From NCBI GenBank assembly GCA_031278225.1, contig JAITKT010000182.1:1-35018 (forward strand): DNA of 35,018 bases, read 5' to 3'. Positions within the stretch are counted from its first letter, which is position 1. Each line of letters opens with the position of its first letter. Made by a program: the position numbers and the translations under genes. The notes beneath the pieces are model-generated. The model was not told the DNA's origin and searched no databases. It was given only the letters and a program-made list of their open reading frames with translations. The stretch is from Deltaproteobacteria bacterium. GTDB taxonomy: Bacteria > Desulfobacterota > Desulfarculia > Adiutricales > Adiutricaceae. This document shows positions 19,159 through 27,618 of this stretch, in pieces.

Positions 19159-21030
19159 TCAACGGATGAGGGACAGGGCGTCGTGGAGCCTCGCTTTCAG
19201 CTCCCCCAGGGCCCCGGGCGGGGAAAGGGCCTTTTCCGCCCTCTCTCCCGCGAGTTTCAAAAAACTCATGGCCGAAGCCGCGGCGTCCAGGGGGTTTTGG
19301 GGCCGGGCCCCGACGAAGGCCCCGACGACGGCGGACAAAACACACCCCGTGCCGGTGAGTTTGGTCATGAGGGGAGAGCCCCCTTTGAGAAAGATGACCT
19401 CTTTCGCGTTCGCGACGACGTCGGTCTCGCCCGTCGCGCCTATCACGGCGCCCGTGGTTTTCGCGAGGGTTTTGGCCGTTTCCGCGAGTTCCCCGAGGTT
19501 TTGGGCGGAGTCCGAGTCCACTCCCTTTTGCCTTTGACCCAGGGTTCCCGCGAGGGCCAGGATCTCCTGGGAGTTTCCCCTGATGACCGCGGGTTTCGCG
19601 ATTTCCGCGAGCCACAGGGCGGCCTTTTTCCTGACGGAGGTGGCCCCGACCCCCGCGGGATCGAGAATCACGGGGATCTTCCGGGCGCGGGCGATTTCCG
19701 CCGCCTTTTTCATTGACGCGAGTGTTTCGTCGTTCAAGGTCCCGATGTTCAACACGACGCCCGCCGCGAAGGCCGCGATTTCGCCCGCGTCTTCCGGGGA
19801 CAGGCTCATGACCGGGGAAGCCCCGATCGCGAGAAGGGCGTTCGCGCAATCCGCGACCGTCACGAAATTGGTGAGGCACAGGATCAGGGGGGATTTTTCC
19901 CTCACCTTCCCGAGGTTTTCGGCGAAGGGATGACTCGTGAGGAAAGGGGGCGCGAAGGCCCGGGAGAGGTGTTTCCCCCGCCATCCGCCCCACCCGCCGC
20001 CGGGTCCGCCTCCGCGCGCGCCGCGTCCGCCGGGGAAAGACGCCCTGTGAGCGGGGGCGCCCGGGACGCCTTCGGGGAACGAGGGGATCGCGGTTTCGGG
20101 AGTCTCGTCGCGGATTGGAATCGCTTTCGCGGCTTCGGCCGGGGCTTCGGCGGACGCCGCTGGGCCGGTGGCGCGGTTTTCCGGGAGGGAGTAGCCGTAA
20201 AAACCGTGGAAGTGGTGGAGGGGTCCGCGGCCTTTCCCCAGGGGGAGTCCTTCCCTCATGGCGGAGTGGACGTAGGATTTGGCCGCGAGCGTCGCGTCCT
20301 TCAAGGGGAGTCCCAGGGCGAGACAGGCGGCGATGGCCGAGGACAAGGTGCAACCGGTCCCGTGGTCGGACGTCGCGTTCAGTCTGGGGGAGGTGAGGAA
20401 GGAAAGGGTTCCGTCCCCTTCGAGGAGGATGTCCACCGCCTCGGACCCGGAAAGATGGCCCCCCTTCAAAAGAACGGCCCCGGGATTGTGGGTTTTCATG
20501 AGCCTTTCGGCCGCGGCCGTCGCCCCCGCGACGTCGGAAAAGGGAAAGCCCGAGAGTCTCGCGGCCTCGCGGGCGTTGGGCGTGACGAGGGTCGAGAGGC
20601 GGAAGAGATCTTTCAAGGCCGAGACGGCTTCGTCCCCCAAAAACGCGTGACCCGAGGCGCTCACCATGACCGGGTCCACCACCACCGGAACCTTCGGAAC
20701 GCCGTTGGCCTCGAGGTCTTTAAGAAATTCGACGACGGCGAGGGTGTTTCGGGCGTTTCCGATGAGACCGATCTTCACGGCGTCGACCTTGAAGTCCGAG
20801 AAGATCGCCCACAGTTGGGCGGTCACCAGATCCGGGGACACGGACTCCGAGGCCGCGACCTCCGTCGTGTTCTGGGCGGTGACGGAGGACAGGCAGCAAA
20901 GCCCGTACGCCCCGAAGGCGGCGAAGGTCTTGAGGTCGGCTTGGATTCCCGCCCCGCCCCCGCTGTCGGAAGAGGCTATCGTGAGCGCCGTCTTGAGCGG
21001 CAAGGGGTCGCGATGAAAAAAACGTGACAT
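19159..21030 (-). CDS. thiDM: ThiD-ThiM fusion: HMP(-P) kinase and hydroxyethylthiazole kinase
   Basis: A 623-aa bifunctional enzyme for thiamine salvage. The N-terminal ~270 residues are ThiD, which phosphorylates hydroxymethylpyrimidine twice: [20 protein letters not shown] near 15-35, [11 protein letters not shown], and the anion-hole loop [10 protein letters not shown]. The C-terminal ~250 residues are ThiM, which phosphorylates hydroxyethylthiazole: [28 protein letters not shown], and [11 protein letters not shown] with the catalytic Cys. A roughly 95-residue linker rich in Ala, Gly and Pro joins them. ThiE is encoded next, so all salvage steps to thiamine phosphate are in one operon. 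The ATG is 7 bases after GAGGGAG, which is itself the likely target of the upstream TPP riboswitch. Fusions of thi genes are known in bacteria; this pairing is less common than ThiD-ThiE. Confidence 0.95.
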
Positions 21031-21535: not shown

Positions 21536-22747
21536 TCAGTTCTTGTCTTCCGCGTCGGCGTCGTTTTCGGGGCAGTCCTCGAGGTCTTGGTCCAGTTCCG
21601 GGCTTTCTTCGGCGTCGAAGATTTCGGCGGGGTCGTCGTTTTTCGGGTCGTCCGCCTTCCCTTCGGCCGCTTTCCCTTCGGCCGCTTTCCGTTCGTTCGC
21701 GGTCTCGGCGCCCAGTTGGGAGGCGGGGGGCGTTTTTTTGGCGGGGAGCCTCGAGTCCGGGATGACGTCCTCGTCGTCTATGAGCCAGGGGTCCCTGAAA
21801 CAGGCGATGTTCCGGCCCATCTGCTTCGCGTCGTAGAGGGCGAGGTCGGCCCTTCTTATGAAGTTCTGGAGGGTTTCCCCGGGGCGGTATATGGTGAAGC
21901 CCACGCTTATGGTGATCCGGAGCTTGTCGGTCCCGAAGTCGTGGGAGGCTATCCTCGAGCGGAGCTTTTCCGCGAGCTTCTGGGACTGCTCGGTGTTGGT
22001 GTCCGGGGCTATGACCGTGAACTCGTCGCCCCCGTAGCGGGCGGGAAAGTCGTTCTTGCGGAGGGAGGCCTTCAGGACCTCGGCCACCTGGATCAGTATG
22101 GAGTCACCCGCGAGGTGGCCCAGGGTGTCGTTCACGTTTTTGAAGTGGTCCACGTCGATGATGAAGAGGGCCATGGTGGGGGAGTAGTTCCTGAACTTCT
22201 CGACCTGCTCTTGGAGTATGTCCATGAAACTGCCCTTGTTGTAGAGCTTGGTCATGGCGTCGAAGAGGGCCTTTTTCTTGAAGGAGTTCAGGGCCGTGGA
22301 GATCTTCCGCCTCTCCATGAGCTCGTGGCGGGCCTTTCTCAAAATGCGGAGACGCTCGGCGTACTCCTCGTGGATGACCTGGATGCTCATGACCTGCTCG
22401 TCCTTGAGCTGCCAGGCCCTGGCTATCAGGGGGATCTCCTCGGAGGAGGAGTGGTCGGTTTCCAGCCAGATCCCGGAGTTGATGCGCTCCCCGGGCTTGG
22501 GGGAACGCTCGAAGAACTCCTCGGCGTCCAGAAGGAAGTATTCGAGCATGAAGGAATGTTCCCAGGGGTTGTCGAGGCGCCCGTCATCCCCGGTGAAGAT
22601 CTTTTTGTAAAAGGACGGGACGAGGCCGCAGAATTCGTAGCTCCTCGGGCCCGTGCGCTTGAGGAGGGCGTATTCCAGGAAATTCAAAAACTCCAGTCCC
22701 AAGGCCCCGTCGAAATCGCTGAGAGCGGGAGGGGTGTTTTCGGTCAC
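21536..22747 (-). CDS. Diguanylate cyclase with a novel N-terminal sensor-like module
   Basis: A 403-aa protein predicted to make c-di-GMP from two GTP. The GGDEF domain spans about 162-317 with an intact active site GGDEF (239-243), metal-binding Asp in IIDVDHFKNVND, and an inhibitory I-site RKND (230-233) exactly five residues upstream, so product feedback is expected. The N-terminal 125 residues (GLVPSFYKKIF, FMLEYFLLDAEEFFE, INSGIWLETD) are a separate domain followed by a short coiled coil; from memory this resembles modules preceding histidine kinases in cyanobacterial clusters with Rab-like GTPases. The tail (340-403) is acidic with AAEGK repeats. There is no membrane segment. The GTG start overlaps the GTPase stop (GTGA); the frame is open further upstream, but there it overlaps the GTPase gene and is not coding. 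Coupled translation suggests a GTPase effector, which is inference. Confidence 0.93.
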   Translation of the reverse strand: MTENTPPALSDFDGALGLEFLNFLEYALLKRTGPRSYEFCGLVPSFYKKIFTGDDGRLDNPWEHSFMLEYFLLDAEEFFERSPKPGERINSGIWLETDHSSSEEIPLIARAWQLKDEQVMSIQVIHEEYAERLRILRKARHELMERRKISTALNSFKKKALFDAMTKLYNKGSFMDILQEQVEKFRNYSPTMALFIIDVDHFKNVNDTLGHLAGDSILIQVAEVLKASLRKNDFPARYGGDEFTVIAPDTNTEQSQKLAEKLRSRIASHDFGTDKLRITISVGFTIYRPGETLQNFIRRADLALYDAKQMGRNIACFRDPWLIDDEDVIPDSRLPAKKTPPASQLGAETANERKAAEGKAAEGKADDPKNDDPAEIFDAEESPELDQDLEDCPENDADAEDKN

Positions 22748-23256
22748 GTTTTCTCCAACATGTCCAAGGTGAGGTCCCGAAAGGTTTGTTCCACGTTCAG
22801 ACCCGTCTTGGCGCTTGTTTTGACGATCTTGATTCCCTTGGATTCCAGGGAACTCAGAACCTTGTCCGACACTTCCCACTCGGGTTCGAGGTCGCACTTG
22901 TTTATCAAAAAATAGCCCGGCACCCCCCGGTCCAGGATCTTCAGGGCCTCGTTCCGGAGCTTCAGGGCCACGGACAGGGTCTCCCCCCTGGTGCCGTCCA
23001 CGACGAAGAGGAGGCCGTGGGCGCCCCTCAGGTAAGAGAGATTCACGGTCGAGTAATTGTCCTGGCCCTCCATGTCCCACAGGACCAGGGACACGCCTCC
23101 CTCTTCCTCCCGGTCCTCCCTTATGACCTTCTTGGAGATTTTGACTCCCACGGTGGAGAGGTAGTTGTCGGAAAAAATGGAGTTGACGAACTGCCTCACC
23201 AATGCCGTTTTGCCCACGCAGAAGGCCCCCAGCATGCATATCTTTTTGTTAATCAT
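22744..23256 (-). CDS. Ras/Rab-like small GTPase
   Basis: A 170-aa single-domain GTPase with every G motif of eukaryotic-like small GTPases: P-loop GAFCVGKT (10-17), switch I Thr35 in YLSTVGV, switch II WDMEGQ with Asp61, Gly64 and the catalytic Gln65, NKCD (119-122) for guanine recognition, and SAK (148-150). There is no C-terminal prenylation motif and no membrane segment, so localisation must come from partners. Prokaryotic members (the MglA/Rup groups) control polarity or unknown processes, usually with a roadblock-fold partner. Here the roadblock-like domain is in the upstream OmpA protein and a diguanylate cyclase is translationally coupled downstream. The ribosome site GGAGGA is rather far (about 14 bases) from the ATG. 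The intact Gln means intrinsic hydrolysis is possible. Confidence 0.95.
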   Translation of the reverse strand: MINKKICMLGAFCVGKTALVRQFVNSIFSDNYLSTVGVKISKKVIREDREEEGGVSLVLWDMEGQDNYSTVNLSYLRGAHGLLFVVDGTRGETLSVALKLRNEALKILDRGVPGYFLINKCDLEPEWEVSDKVLSSLESKGIKIVKTSAKTGLNVEQTFRDLTLDMLEKT

Positions 23257-23591: not shown

Positions 23592-26500
23592 CTACTCCGG
23601 CGGCCCGGGGATTTCCCCGGTGGACGCGTCCCCCACGTCGAGGCCCAGGATCTTCGCCGCGTTGGCCCCGGCGCCCTCCACGAAGACGCGCAGTTCTATC
23701 CTGCGGCTGTCGAGGTCCTCCACGGGCTTGTCCGCCCCGGGGTCGTTTTTGGAAAACTCCGAGCCCATGGCGAAGTTGCGGATGGTCATGTAGGAGCCCC
23801 GGGCGTAGAGAAGGGCCGCCACGGTCTTGGTTCTTTCGAGGGAGAGCTCGTAGTTGCGCATGGGTTGGCCCGTGGCGTCCGTGTGCCCGTAGATGGCGAG
23901 GGAGATCGTGACCTGCAGGCGCGGGGCCAGGTCCTCGAGTTCCTTCAATTTGTCCATGGCCTCGGCGAGTTTCCCCGCGTCCTCCGGGATGGGTTCGGCT
24001 TTCCCCAAGGGGAAGCGTATGTTGGCGTCGTTAATCTCCCGGACGAGGGCGATCATCTTCGCGATGTCCTCGTTGTGGACCCCCGAGGTGTCCACGGACT
24101 TCACCCCCGCGACGGAGGTCGATTTGTTCAGGGTCGAGACGAGCCAGCCCAAGGGCGCGTCGCCTTTCAAGGAAATGACCCCTGTCGCGTCGTCGAAAAC
24201 GACTTCCATGGTCCCGGGGGGAGCGAGGATGTTCGCGATCCTTTGGCGCACCAAGGGGCCGTCCATGGACACGAAGGGTTTGACCACGAGCCGGAAGGCG
24301 CTTTCGCGGACGTCGCCCGCTTCCGTGAGCACCGCCGCGGGGTCCTCGGCCAGCTCGTCCTTGAGGCAGACCACCTCGTAAAGACCGTCGCCGATTTCGG
24401 TGACCCTCCCCACGGCCAGTCCCGGCCTGTCGTTCAAGCGCTCTATGGCCGCGTTCACCTTTTTTTCGAAGGAGGCCCTGGCCCTCGTTCGAAAATCCGC
24501 TCTTTCCTCGGCCCTTCTCTCCTCGACCGCCCCGTTTTCCGCGATAAGTTTGTCGTCGTAAATTTTAAGACCCAAAAGGGCCAAAAGAATCAAAACGATT
24601 GTCGCGGGGATCATCCTCACGAGGAAGGGAAGTTTCCGGGGCTTTTCCTCGTACTGGGCCACCAGGAAGGGCTGGAAGAAGGCCCTGTTCTTTTTGAAGG
24701 GGGCGGGGTCCCCGGAGAAATTGTCGAGGTCGTCCGCGGAGTTCACCACCATGAGCTCCAGGGCGTCCTGGAGGTCCTGCTTCAGGGAGGCCGGGGGATT
24801 TCCCCTGACCACGCAGGCCATGAAGACCTTTTCCGTTCTCTGGAGGAAGATGGTCCTCTCCCCGAACCTCAGATTGTCCAGATGCTCGTTTTTGCCCACC
24901 GAGAAGCTGTCCCTTATGAAGTCCCGGATGGCGGTGAACATCGCCGCGACGAGTTCGGCGTCCCTGCTTTCGCCCCCCTCGTAGACGAGGTGGTCGAGGA
25001 TGAGACCCGACTCGGCGTGGATGAGGTAAATTTCCTCCACGTGATAGAGAAGCGTGTGGAGAAGGACTATCTCGCTGAAGGGCTTGTGCACCCTCCAGGC
25101 CTCGAGCCTCCACTTCGCGCCCTTCAGGGAAAAGCTCGTCTCCAGCATGCTGTTGAAAGATTGGAGCATGCTGGTGAAGGTGTCGGAGATGGACCTTCTT
25201 ATCGCGGGACCTATGACCGGGAAGATCTGGTTCGCGAGGGTCTCGGGGTTTCTCCTGACCGAGGAACTGAAGATCTTTTCCACGGTCGGGGCCAGGACCG
25301 TGTTGAGTTTGTCGTCCTTGCGGCTCCTCACGAGGAGGGCCTCGGTTATGACGCCCGCGATCCTCTGGGCCAGGGCCTGGGGGTCGTCGATGATGTCGGT
25401 GAGCCTGTCGAGCTGTTTCAGCTCCCTTTCGAAGAAGAGACTCCGGAGCTTTCCCATTTCGCTGGAGGGGTCGGGTCGGGGAGGCAGAAGGTCGGCGTCG
25501 GTTTCTTCCGAGCCGCCTTCGGCGCCGCGGTCAATGGCTCCTCCGTCGGTCCCCGCGAAGGTTTCGTCGACCGTTCCCGCGAAGATTTCGTCGCCGGTTC
25601 CTTCCGGGGAAGCCCCGTCCCCGAACGCGCGTTCCGGCGCCTTGTCCGCGGAAAGGTACGCGAAACCGGTTCCGAAGCCCTCGCCGAAGCCCGCGTCGAA
25701 AGCCGCTCCGAAGCCCGCGGCGGGGGTTTCCGGGGAGGTTCGGGTTTTCGGCGTTTCTTCCGGGTCGTCCGCGAGTTCGAAGTCTTCCCCGAGGTCCTCG
25801 GAACTTAAGCTTATCGCCTCGTGACGTTCGGGGTCGTCGCTTTTCCGGGGCGGTTTATCCGCCGCGTCCCCCGGATCCGCGCTCTCCGAAAAAGCGACCG
25901 GGGTTTCGTCGTCGGAAGGCGATTCGTCGTCGGGCGGGGCGAGGTCGTCGAAGGCGTGGTCGAAAACCACCGCGTCGTCCAAGGGAATCGCGGGGTCCTC
26001 CCCGCGGGCGTCCGCCGTTTTCCCGGGGGCCGTTTCGGGCGTTTCGGGGGCCCGCGGGACGCGTTTGTCCGAGACCGCGAGTTCCGCCAGTTCCGGAAAG
26101 AAGGAATCCAGCTCCGAGAGGAAGCTCTCCTCGAAGTTTTTCTTGGCGGTTTCCCTCGCGTTCGCGGTTTCTCCCGCGTCGGACGCGCCTTTTTCCCCCG
26201 GGTTCATTCCCGGGTCGATTCCCGGGTCGATTTCCGTGTCGTTCGCGTTTCGGGGAGACGCGCCCGAATCCGGGGCGGTCGAAATCGGGTCGGAAATCGG
26301 GCCGGAATCGGGGCTCGAATCCGGGTCGGTTTTGGGAAAATTCGCGAAAGGGGCGTCGTCGGGGGTGTCTTCGGGAGTGTGGTCGGGAGTGTCGTCCGGA
26401 GTGTTTTCGGGAGTGTGGTCGGGAGTGTCGTCGGTGGTCGCGCGGGAGTCGGAAAGGTCATCGGGGAAGAGGGAAGGGAAGACGGAGGGGTCGTCCGAAG

Positions 26501-26615
26501 GGCCCGGGGCGGGGACGTTCCCGCCCGGGTCCCCGCCGGGGGCGGGGTTCGGGGGAGGTCCCTGCTCGGAACCCCCGATTTTTTTCTTTTTGGAAAAAAA
26601 TGAGAATAAACCCAT
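23592..26615 (-). CDS. Trans-envelope protein: roadblock-like cytoplasmic domain, one membrane span, OmpA domain
   Basis: A 1007-aa protein of clear layout. Residues 1-380 are a long acidic, low-complexity region with tandem tetrapeptides TP(D/E)x (64-87) and DPG repeats. Residues about 390-645 form a conserved helical and alpha/beta part; 512-625 (LLHTLLYHVEEIYLIHAESGLIL onward) looks like a roadblock/LC7 fold, the fold of MglB-type GTPase regulators. One membrane span lies at 664-684. The periplasmic part (about 700-1000) has two BON-like stretches and an OmpA C-terminal domain (865-980, with YGHTDATGQ and SRRIEL) that in this family binds peptidoglycan. It thus links the cell wall to the cytoplasm. 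The small GTPase follows downstream, so I infer that the roadblock part contacts it. The ATG has GAGGA 11 bases upstream. I recall a similar architecture beside Rab-like GTPases in cyanobacteria; its function is not established. Confidence 0.88.
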   Translation of the reverse strand: MGLFSFFSKKKKIGGSEQGPPPNPAPGGDPGGNVPAPGPSDDPSVFPSLFPDDLSDSRATTDDTPDHTPENTPDDTPDHTPEDTPDDAPFANFPKTDPDSSPDSGPISDPISTAPDSGASPRNANDTEIDPGIDPGMNPGEKGASDAGETANARETAKKNFEESFLSELDSFFPELAELAVSDKRVPRAPETPETAPGKTADARGEDPAIPLDDAVVFDHAFDDLAPPDDESPSDDETPVAFSESADPGDAADKPPRKSDDPERHEAISLSSEDLGEDFELADDPEETPKTRTSPETPAAGFGAAFDAGFGEGFGTGFAYLSADKAPERAFGDGASPEGTGDEIFAGTVDETFAGTDGGAIDRGAEGGSEETDADLLPPRPDPSSEMGKLRSLFFERELKQLDRLTDIIDDPQALAQRIAGVITEALLVRSRKDDKLNTVLAPTVEKIFSSSVRRNPETLANQIFPVIGPAIRRSISDTFTSMLQSFNSMLETSFSLKGAKWRLEAWRVHKPFSEIVLLHTLLYHVEEIYLIHAESGLILDHLVYEGGESRDAELVAAMFTAIRDFIRDSFSVGKNEHLDNLRFGERTIFLQRTEKVFMACVVRGNPPASLKQDLQDALELMVVNSADDLDNFSGDPAPFKKNRAFFQPFLVAQYEEKPRKLPFLVRMIPATIVLILLALLGLKIYDDKLIAENGAVEERRAEERADFRTRARASFEKKVNAAIERLNDRPGLAVGRVTEIGDGLYEVVCLKDELAEDPAAVLTEAGDVRESAFRLVVKPFVSMDGPLVRQRIANILAPPGTMEVVFDDATGVISLKGDAPLGWLVSTLNKSTSVAGVKSVDTSGVHNEDIAKMIALVREINDANIRFPLGKAEPIPEDAGKLAEAMDKLKELEDLAPRLQVTISLAIYGHTDATGQPMRNYELSLERTKTVAALLYARGSYMTIRNFAMGSEFSKNDPGADKPVEDLDSRRIELRVFVEGAGANAAKILGLDVGDASTGEIPGPPE
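26355..26432. repeat. 12-bp coding tandem repeat in the OmpA-protein gene
   Basis: About six degenerate 12-bp units encode successive TP(D/E)x tetrapeptides in the acidic region. A second patch near 26206-26235 repeats a 12-bp DPG-coding unit three times. Being in frame (12 = 4 codons), changes in copy number would alter length without a frameshift. Confidence 0.7.
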
Positions 26616-26763: not shown

Positions 26764-27618
26764 TCAGTATCCGCCCTGGCCGTCGTTTCCGCGGTTTTGG
26801 TCGTCGTAACCCCGGTTTTGGTCTTCGGGGTTTTGGTCTTCGGGGTTTTGGTTTTCCCCTTCCGGGGCGTTTTCGCCTTCCCGGTTTTCGTTTTCGCCGG
26901 AATCGCTCTCGTAAACGTCCTTGGCCTCTTCCTCGACGTCGTCCATGTCGAGGTTCCAGGGTTTGGAGAGGTTGGCCACGGTGTCGGTGAACATGGTGGA
27001 AAGGGCGGTGCGGTATACCATGTCGGAGCGGATCTGGGAGGAGGTCTTTCCGATGATGGCCACGAGCTCGGCGTATTTCTCGTCAATCTTGTCCGAGAGG
27101 CTCGTCGTTTCCCGCATGAGGAGATCCCTTATCGCCCTTTCGGTCTGGTCGAGGTTCCGGGAGATGATGCCCGCCTTTCTCTCGAAGTTTTCGTTGGCGT
27201 TCCGGAGCTCGGTCGAGAGGCGGGAGTCGGATTCCTGGCGTTCCCGGTTCTCGCGGGCGATGCCGTCCCGGAACTCGTTTTTGAGGTTTTCCCCCTGGTT
27301 CTCCCTTTCCCTCGCCTCCGCCCCGAGAGCTTCCTGGCGGTCCTTTTCCTCGTTTTTGAGGGAGTTTTCCCGCTCTTCCTTCTCCTCGGCGAGCTTGTTG
27401 AACATGGCCCCGATTTCGCTTTTCATGTGGTTTTCGAGGGAGTCCAGGCGGCTTCTCAAGGATTCCCTGACTTCGTTGATTTCCCTCAGGAAGCGCTCTT
27501 CCTGTCTCCGGAAGCGGGTTTCCATGTCTTTCAACTGAGCCCCGAAAAGGATTTCCCTCACCTGGGCCATGGGGGCGTCGGACTTGTCTAGACCCCCGCG
27601 GGGTAAATTTTTTGTCAT
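26764..27618 (-). CDS. Coiled-coil protein with acidic Asn/Gln/Asp-rich tail
   Basis: A 284-aa protein, first gene of the GTPase cluster. Residues about 17-60 (REILFGAQLKDMETRF onward) begin a long heptad-type coiled coil running to about 190, with many Arg, Glu and Lys. A short hydrophobic-helical stretch follows (YRTALSTMFTDTVANLSKP), then an acidic disordered tail with NPEDQ and NRG repeats (a 15-bp DNA repeat near 26814-26853). There is no signal peptide or membrane segment. The start is secured by GGAGGT nine bases before the ATG. A start at Met17 is possible but less well supported. The start 'MAQVREILFG' and the overall pattern resemble coiled-coil proteins I remember beside OmpA-GTPase pairs in other bacteria, which suggests a scaffold role. 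This is inference. Confidence 0.85.
   Translation of the reverse strand: MTKNLPRGGLDKSDAPMAQVREILFGAQLKDMETRFRRQEERFLREINEVRESLRSRLDSLENHMKSEIGAMFNKLAEEKEERENSLKNEEKDRQEALGAEARERENQGENLKNEFRDGIARENRERQESDSRLSTELRNANENFERKAGIISRNLDQTERAIRDLLMRETTSLSDKIDEKYAELVAIIGKTSSQIRSDMVYRTALSTMFTDTVANLSKPWNLDMDDVEEEAKDVYESDSGENENREGENAPEGENQNPEDQNPEDQNRGYDDQNRGNDGQGGY

Follow-up and report, generated by a model that had tools for sequence, protein, structure and literature searches.

A gene on the reverse strand at positions 23,592 to 26,615 of a 35,018-nucleotide contig from a deltaproteobacterium (the whole of this stretch being referred to here as the window) is best explained as encoding the longin-fold, envelope-anchored member of a cassette built around a Group 1 Rup GTPase. 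The protein probably binds the small GTPase encoded beside it, regulating it or holding it in place, and would thereby control a c-di-GMP output. This reading builds on the architecture of the protein, on its conservation and on the coupling of its gene to those of the GTPase and the output protein, together with a longin fold predicted by structural modelling.

Architecture of the protein

In the ORF listing of the window the gene is a single uninterrupted frame of 1007 codons. The initial annotation had described one chain that crosses the membrane and carries an OmpA anchor, preceded by an acidic disordered region of about 380 residues, and this description is borne out in both respects. 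The parts of the protein, with the evidence for each in brackets, are as follows.

23592 to 26615, reverse strand: longin-transmembrane-OmpA protein of 1007 residues (ORF and homologues).
26580 to 26615, reverse strand: N-terminal MGLFSFFSKKKK motif, kept as MGFFSxFxxKK in the window's family (N-termini of relatives).
25464 to 26579, reverse strand: acidic, Pro/Gly-rich disordered region, residues 13-384 (composition and homologue comparison).
25101 to 25463, reverse strand: conserved segment made up entirely of helices, about residues 385-505, lying after the disordered region and ahead of the longin fold (alignment; AlphaFold2 helices at model positions 2-125).
24663 to 25079, reverse strand: domain predicted to adopt a longin fold, about residues 513-651, with the order (a)-b-b-a-b-b-b-a-a (AlphaFold2 models m076ef19eda12 and m2084a05c0bf0; Foldseek against the PDB).
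24567 to 24623, reverse strand: transmembrane helix, residues 665-683 (mean hydropathy 2.46 over 19 residues).
23661 to 23954, reverse strand: peptidoglycan-binding domain of OmpA type, about residues 888-985, which includes D913 and R928 (PF00691 match, motif position, homologues above the cut-off).

The N-terminal motif that precedes the disordered region may form an amphipathic, membrane-binding start to the protein. The disordered region itself (approximately 370 residues) has an acidic composition with abundant Pro, Gly and Ser; residues 15-384 contain 56 Asp, 34 Glu and 54 Pro, and the region ahead of the conserved domain is 23% acidic. It is long mainly in the window's family, extending over approximately 170-430 residues in the close relatives there and over 10-70 residues in most other homologues. 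Pfam matches to UBR4 (E about 0.001) that overlap the helical segment were dismissed as chance.

Residues 665-683 are the most strongly hydrophobic stretch of the 1007-residue protein and are flanked by basic residues on the N-terminal, cytoplasmic side. The PF00691 match to the window protein covers residues 888-940 and, at 24.5 bits, falls just below the Pfam cut-off of 27.2, whereas relatives of the same gene score above it (up to 54.6 bits in Nostoc). D913 and R928 show the canonical 15-residue spacing of the OmpA peptidoglycan-binding motif. That the protein is fixed in position, one of two suggestions made in the initial annotation, may fairly be inferred from this motif; nothing in the analysis supports the other, that it is directly mechanosensitive. 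In two zetaproteobacterial homologues (L066 and L120) the C-terminal part has no OmpA match; the anchor seems to vary among homologues.

The region between the disordered stretch and the membrane helix is not a chance stretch of sequence, since residues 385-655 are strongly conserved (about 37-81% identity) at no fewer than 80 loci in at least ten phyla, including Thermodesulfobacteriota, termite-gut 'Deltaproteobacteria', Cyanobacteriota, Acidobacteriota, Planctomycetota, Pseudomonadota, Campylobacterota and Chloroflexota. Relatives of the domain show 62-81% identity in most genomes of the window's family and 39-47% across its phylum. The closest named relatives among the matches listed are Candidatus Adiutrix and deltaproteobacterial MAGs, the latter being presumably of termite origin to judge from their isolate codes, and the source organism of the window therefore probably belongs to the same family. 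Replicons of Mesorhizobium and Rhizobium carry the domain as well, the Mesorhizobium gene being annotated as 'OmpA family protein' and its neighbour as 'Rab family GTPase'. A homologue belonging to a 'Gastranaerophilales' MAG (L063:5001-5837) has an in-frame stop within the longin-OmpA gene.

Coupling to a Rab-like GTPase and an output protein

Three further genes on the same strand make up the cassette in the window.

26764 to 27618, reverse strand: predicted coiled-coil cytoplasmic protein of 284 residues, upstream cassette member (a homologue precedes the longin-OmpA gene in 70 of the 76 loci that have at least 0.9 kb of upstream sequence; Pfam matches sub-threshold only).
22744 to 23256, reverse strand: Rab-like small GTPase (Rup type) of 170 residues, G3 motif DMEGQD (PF00071, E = 9.5e-28; PDB matches; G motifs).
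21536 to 22747, reverse strand: diguanylate cyclase output protein, with a cassette-specific N-terminal domain joined to GGDEF (PF00990, E = 3.9e-42; junction sequence; N-terminal domain profile).

The GTPase matches PF00071 at 97 bits, carries the motifs GxxxxGKT, DxxG, NKxD and TSAK, and has Rab1 proteins as its nearest solved structures (E 4e-23). No other small Ras-like GTPase was found in the genome of the window, which is 78% complete; a second match to the Ras profile there is weak and lies within a 625-residue frame. In 68 of the 74 loci that could be tested (67 identified by script and L093 by hand), drawn from about ten phyla, the longin-OmpA gene is followed downstream by a GTPase gene of the same orientation. 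The view of the protein as a GTPase regulator, put forward in the initial annotation, gains from this adjacency to a small Ras/Rab-like GTPase gene, although the probable partner is a Rab-like Rup protein and not MglA. At three loci (L072, L074 and L098) the longin-OmpA gene was seen with no Rup GTPase within the stretch retrieved.

The GTG start of the cyclase gene overlaps the stop of the GTPase gene by four bases (GTGA, 22744-22747), which suggests translational coupling. The cyclase has both the catalytic GGDEF motif and the RKND inhibitory site, and its N-terminal part is matched at 160.7 bits by the profile of a domain that is common to output proteins at 56 of the 74 loci. This domain contains an SGxW motif, matches no Pfam model, and is conserved while the effector half changes, being joined to GGDEF, histidine kinase, HD-GYP-type HD or SpoIIE phosphatase domains (L041-L118). 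By their sequences the output proteins follow an exchangeable-output design. In Mesorhizobium an adenylate/guanylate cyclase gene, the N-terminus of which is unmatched by the output-domain profile, takes the place of the output gene. Beside the cassette in the window, at 19159-21030, lies a fusion of phosphomethylpyrimidine kinase and hydroxyethylthiazole kinase (thiamine biosynthesis).

Relationship to the Group 1 Rup cassette

The neighbourhood of Group 1 Rup GTPases was described by Wuichet and Sogaard-Andersen in 2014 as comprising a coiled-coil protein, a protein in which an unknown domain precedes a transmembrane helix and an OmpA domain, and an output protein that has an N-terminal region of its own (PMC4316618). 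The fusion architecture is thus not new, having been set out in that study with the domain marked 'unknown'. The window has all of these elements adjacent to one another, including the small single-domain Rab/Ras-like GTPase, and the same cassette is present in Nostoc and Mesorhizobium, genera named in that paper. The window differs from the published description in one tested respect, in that the GTPase keeps its catalytic Gln. In addition, the output protein has Arg at a column that elsewhere holds Gln and is a candidate for the published one, and the longin-OmpA protein bears the acidic extension of approximately 370 residues. Group 1 GTPases were reported to lack the G3 catalytic Gln, but the Rup groups were drawn by tree, taxonomy and neighbourhood, with the loss of Gln only a reported characteristic (PMC4316618), and the window cassette is therefore filed as a Group 1 variant. 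What is new here is this variant GTPase and the assignment of a longin fold to the 'unknown' domain, for which no precedent was found in the open-access literature searched.

The actinobacterial conservons (CvnA-D) are similar in that a membrane protein, a GTPase, a GTPase partner related at the superfamily level and a signalling enzyme are encoded in one operon. In the conservons, however, the roadblock protein is separate, the membrane component is a histidine kinase and the GTPase belongs to MglA Group 2.

The catalytic glutamine

It has been proposed that the Gln missing from Group 1 Rup GTPases is supplied in trans by the N-terminal region of the output protein (PMC4316618). The G3 Gln that is kept in the window GTPase is found in 24 of 82 relatives, with Glu, Lys or Arg in most of the others. 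About 60 GTPase/output pairs, taken from the window and from L016-L118, were compared at a single column within a helix of the output domain, this column being the best candidate for the paper's invariant Gln although its match to the published column is not certain. All 25 GTPases with Glu at the position of Gln61 were paired with a Gln at this column, and GTPases with Gln, mostly from the window's family, were paired with Arg (21 of 23, the window among them). The pattern resembles the transfer of a catalytic residue from one protein to the other, and would match the idea of a Gln provided in trans.

The same pattern bears on a reading in which the N-terminal domain of the output protein is the GTPase-activating partner, contributing the catalytic Gln in trans in most lineages, and the longin domain acts elsewhere in the cycle. 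Against it, lineages in which the GTPase has Lys or Arg mostly lack both Gln residues, while one lineage has both. In a tree test the swap came down to about one deep split, with one or two independent pairs; the pattern is for that reason to be treated as a lead without statistical support. We regard this reading as tentative, with the balance somewhat against it, and as compatible with, rather than exclusive of, an anchored longin component that binds the GTPase.

Predicted fold of the conserved domain

Two AlphaFold2 models were made, their queries coming from different phyla and sharing about 43% identity. The first, of residues 385-687 of the window protein with an alignment of 79 sequences, was of moderate quality overall (pLDDT 72, mostly 80-90 in the core; pTM 0.47) and gave the order helix-b-b-a-b-b-b-a-a. 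The second, which covered the longin part of the homologue from Nostoc calcicola, reached pLDDT 84 and pTM 0.76. The longin order b-b-a-b-b-b-a-a was predicted in both. When the first model was compared with the PDB by Foldseek, all 24 matches at E <= 0.001 belonged to the longin/roadblock superfamily and included AP sigma subunits, Mon1-Ccz1 (1.0e-4), TRAPP and COPI zeta. The best match of the second was AP sigma (E 1.4e-5), with a chain of a TRAPP subcomplex (the Bet3-Trs33-Bet5-Trs23 entry) at 9.7e-5, Mon1-Ccz1 at 1.2e-4 and Fuzzy-Inturned at 1.7e-3; TM-scores against Sec22b were 0.60/0.75. The best 50 matches of each model were all of this superfamily. Modelling, which had been set beforehand as a test of the initial annotation, thus placed the region in the longin/roadblock superfamily and not in an unrelated fold. 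On the models, membership of the superfamily can be predicted with high confidence and membership of its longin branch with good confidence.

Several of the top matches are AP or COPI subunits. Arf1-GTP recruits the AP and COPI coats, which contain longins, without being regulated by them, and by analogy the domain could be a receptor and not a regulator, in which case GTP-bound Rup would dock on it and the wall anchor would do no more than set the place of the active switch and of the cyclase. The OmpA anchor suits such a landmark role. However, the coupling of the genes is equally compatible with a regulator, and the longins of Mon1-Ccz1 and TRAPP, also among the top matches, are parts of exchange factors. 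A purely receiving function is possible but on the unlikely side.

The initial annotation had called the domain 'Roadblock-like' and proposed a regulator of small GTPases, of the roadblock kind seen in MglB, fused to the OmpA anchor. The superfamily stands, being indicated by two models and by the PDB matches; the MglB branch is improbable. Longin and roadblock domains have a common core and are set apart by an extra helix, which is C-terminal or N-terminal respectively (PMC10933270, PMC3521125). The predicted fold has the additional C-terminal helix of longins; a short helix also stands ahead of strand 1, a feature that recalls the roadblock order a-b-b-a-b-b-b-a. MglB structures are among the matches of the second model, appearing from rank 22 (TM-scores 0.40/0.47), and are absent from the best 50 of the first; TM-scores are clearly higher for longins. 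Among 28 genomes with the longin-OmpA gene, the roadblock profile PF03259 never matches that gene, although 13 of these genomes have genuine roadblock proteins elsewhere; in the window's genome (78% complete) the profile finds no roadblock protein. Alignment of the conserved domain by hhalign against 16 of the genuine roadblock proteins gave a probability of 0.3%. Identity with MglB or roadblock proteins at the level of sequence is ruled out by the profile and hhalign results, and a GTPase-activating protein of MglB type is improbable. MglB resembles the window protein in its structural superfamily, its bacterial origin and its link to a small GTPase gene; it differs in belonging to another branch on both models and sequence and in being small and soluble, and its partner MglA lacks the Asp of DxxG.

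No significant sequence match to longin families was obtained in Pfam scans of 24 and of 79 members, with the family consensus (which has no Pfam match) or with a profile run against PDB sequences, and the fold claim consequently depends on the models. Fuz_longin_1 was matched in 5 of the 79 members with a best E of 0.006, a result that so many tests could yield by chance. Matches to PF19036 and PF19031 were sub-threshold and non-specific, and a genome-wide search with PF19036 did not recover the Fuz_longin_1 matches. As there is no secure sequence-profile match, the domain is termed 'longin-fold' and is not counted as a proven member of any named family of longins. This lack of sequence-level homology would also suit a coincidence of superfolds (a PAS- or profilin-like sandwich in a purely structural envelope protein), but such a coincidence is very improbable: the best 50 PDB matches of either model include no PAS, GAF or profilin structure, and the gene is consistently linked to that of a Rab-like GTPase.

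A model for the cassette

In the explanation that we favour, that of an envelope-anchored longin component of the Rup cassette, a cytoplasmic longin fold and its helical segment would be tied to the peptidoglycan by the membrane helix and the periplasmic OmpA domain. Small GTPases are known to use dimers of longin and roadblock domains as platforms (PMC10933270, PMC3521125). The longin domain would most likely bind the adjoining Rab-like GTPase, probably as a dimeric platform, and would either set its nucleotide state, as an exchange factor or activator, or hold it at fixed sites on the wall. The GTPase may then act on the N-terminal domain common to the output proteins; the output here is a diguanylate cyclase, and the result would therefore be control of c-di-GMP. 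Exchange, activation of hydrolysis and mere docking cannot be told apart from sequence.

The nearest eukaryotic parallels are the longin subunits of Rab exchange factors (Mon1-Ccz1, TRAPP Bet5/Trs23, Fuzzy-Inturned), which share with the window protein the predicted fold, a Rab-like GTPase partner and an association with membranes. The window protein is by contrast bacterial, has a single longin per chain, is covalently tied to membrane and cell wall, and has no detected sequence similarity to them. That the cassettes represent a widespread bacterial, operon-encoded Rab-longin pair, in which a longin regulator welded to the wall is homologous to the eukaryotic longin exchange factors that place Rabs on membranes, is doubtful.

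Implications

Platforms of the longin/roadblock type are generally attributed to archaea (PMC10933270). If the homology just described is true, the Rab-longin partnership would predate eukaryotes and would not be archaeal only. At the time the family was described in 2014 there was no experimentally characterised Rup GTPase. The predicted longin fold would give a bacterial Rab-like GTPase a partner of the longin kind, and would offer a first concrete, testable mechanism for the Rup GTPases, in cyanobacteria that can be cultured.
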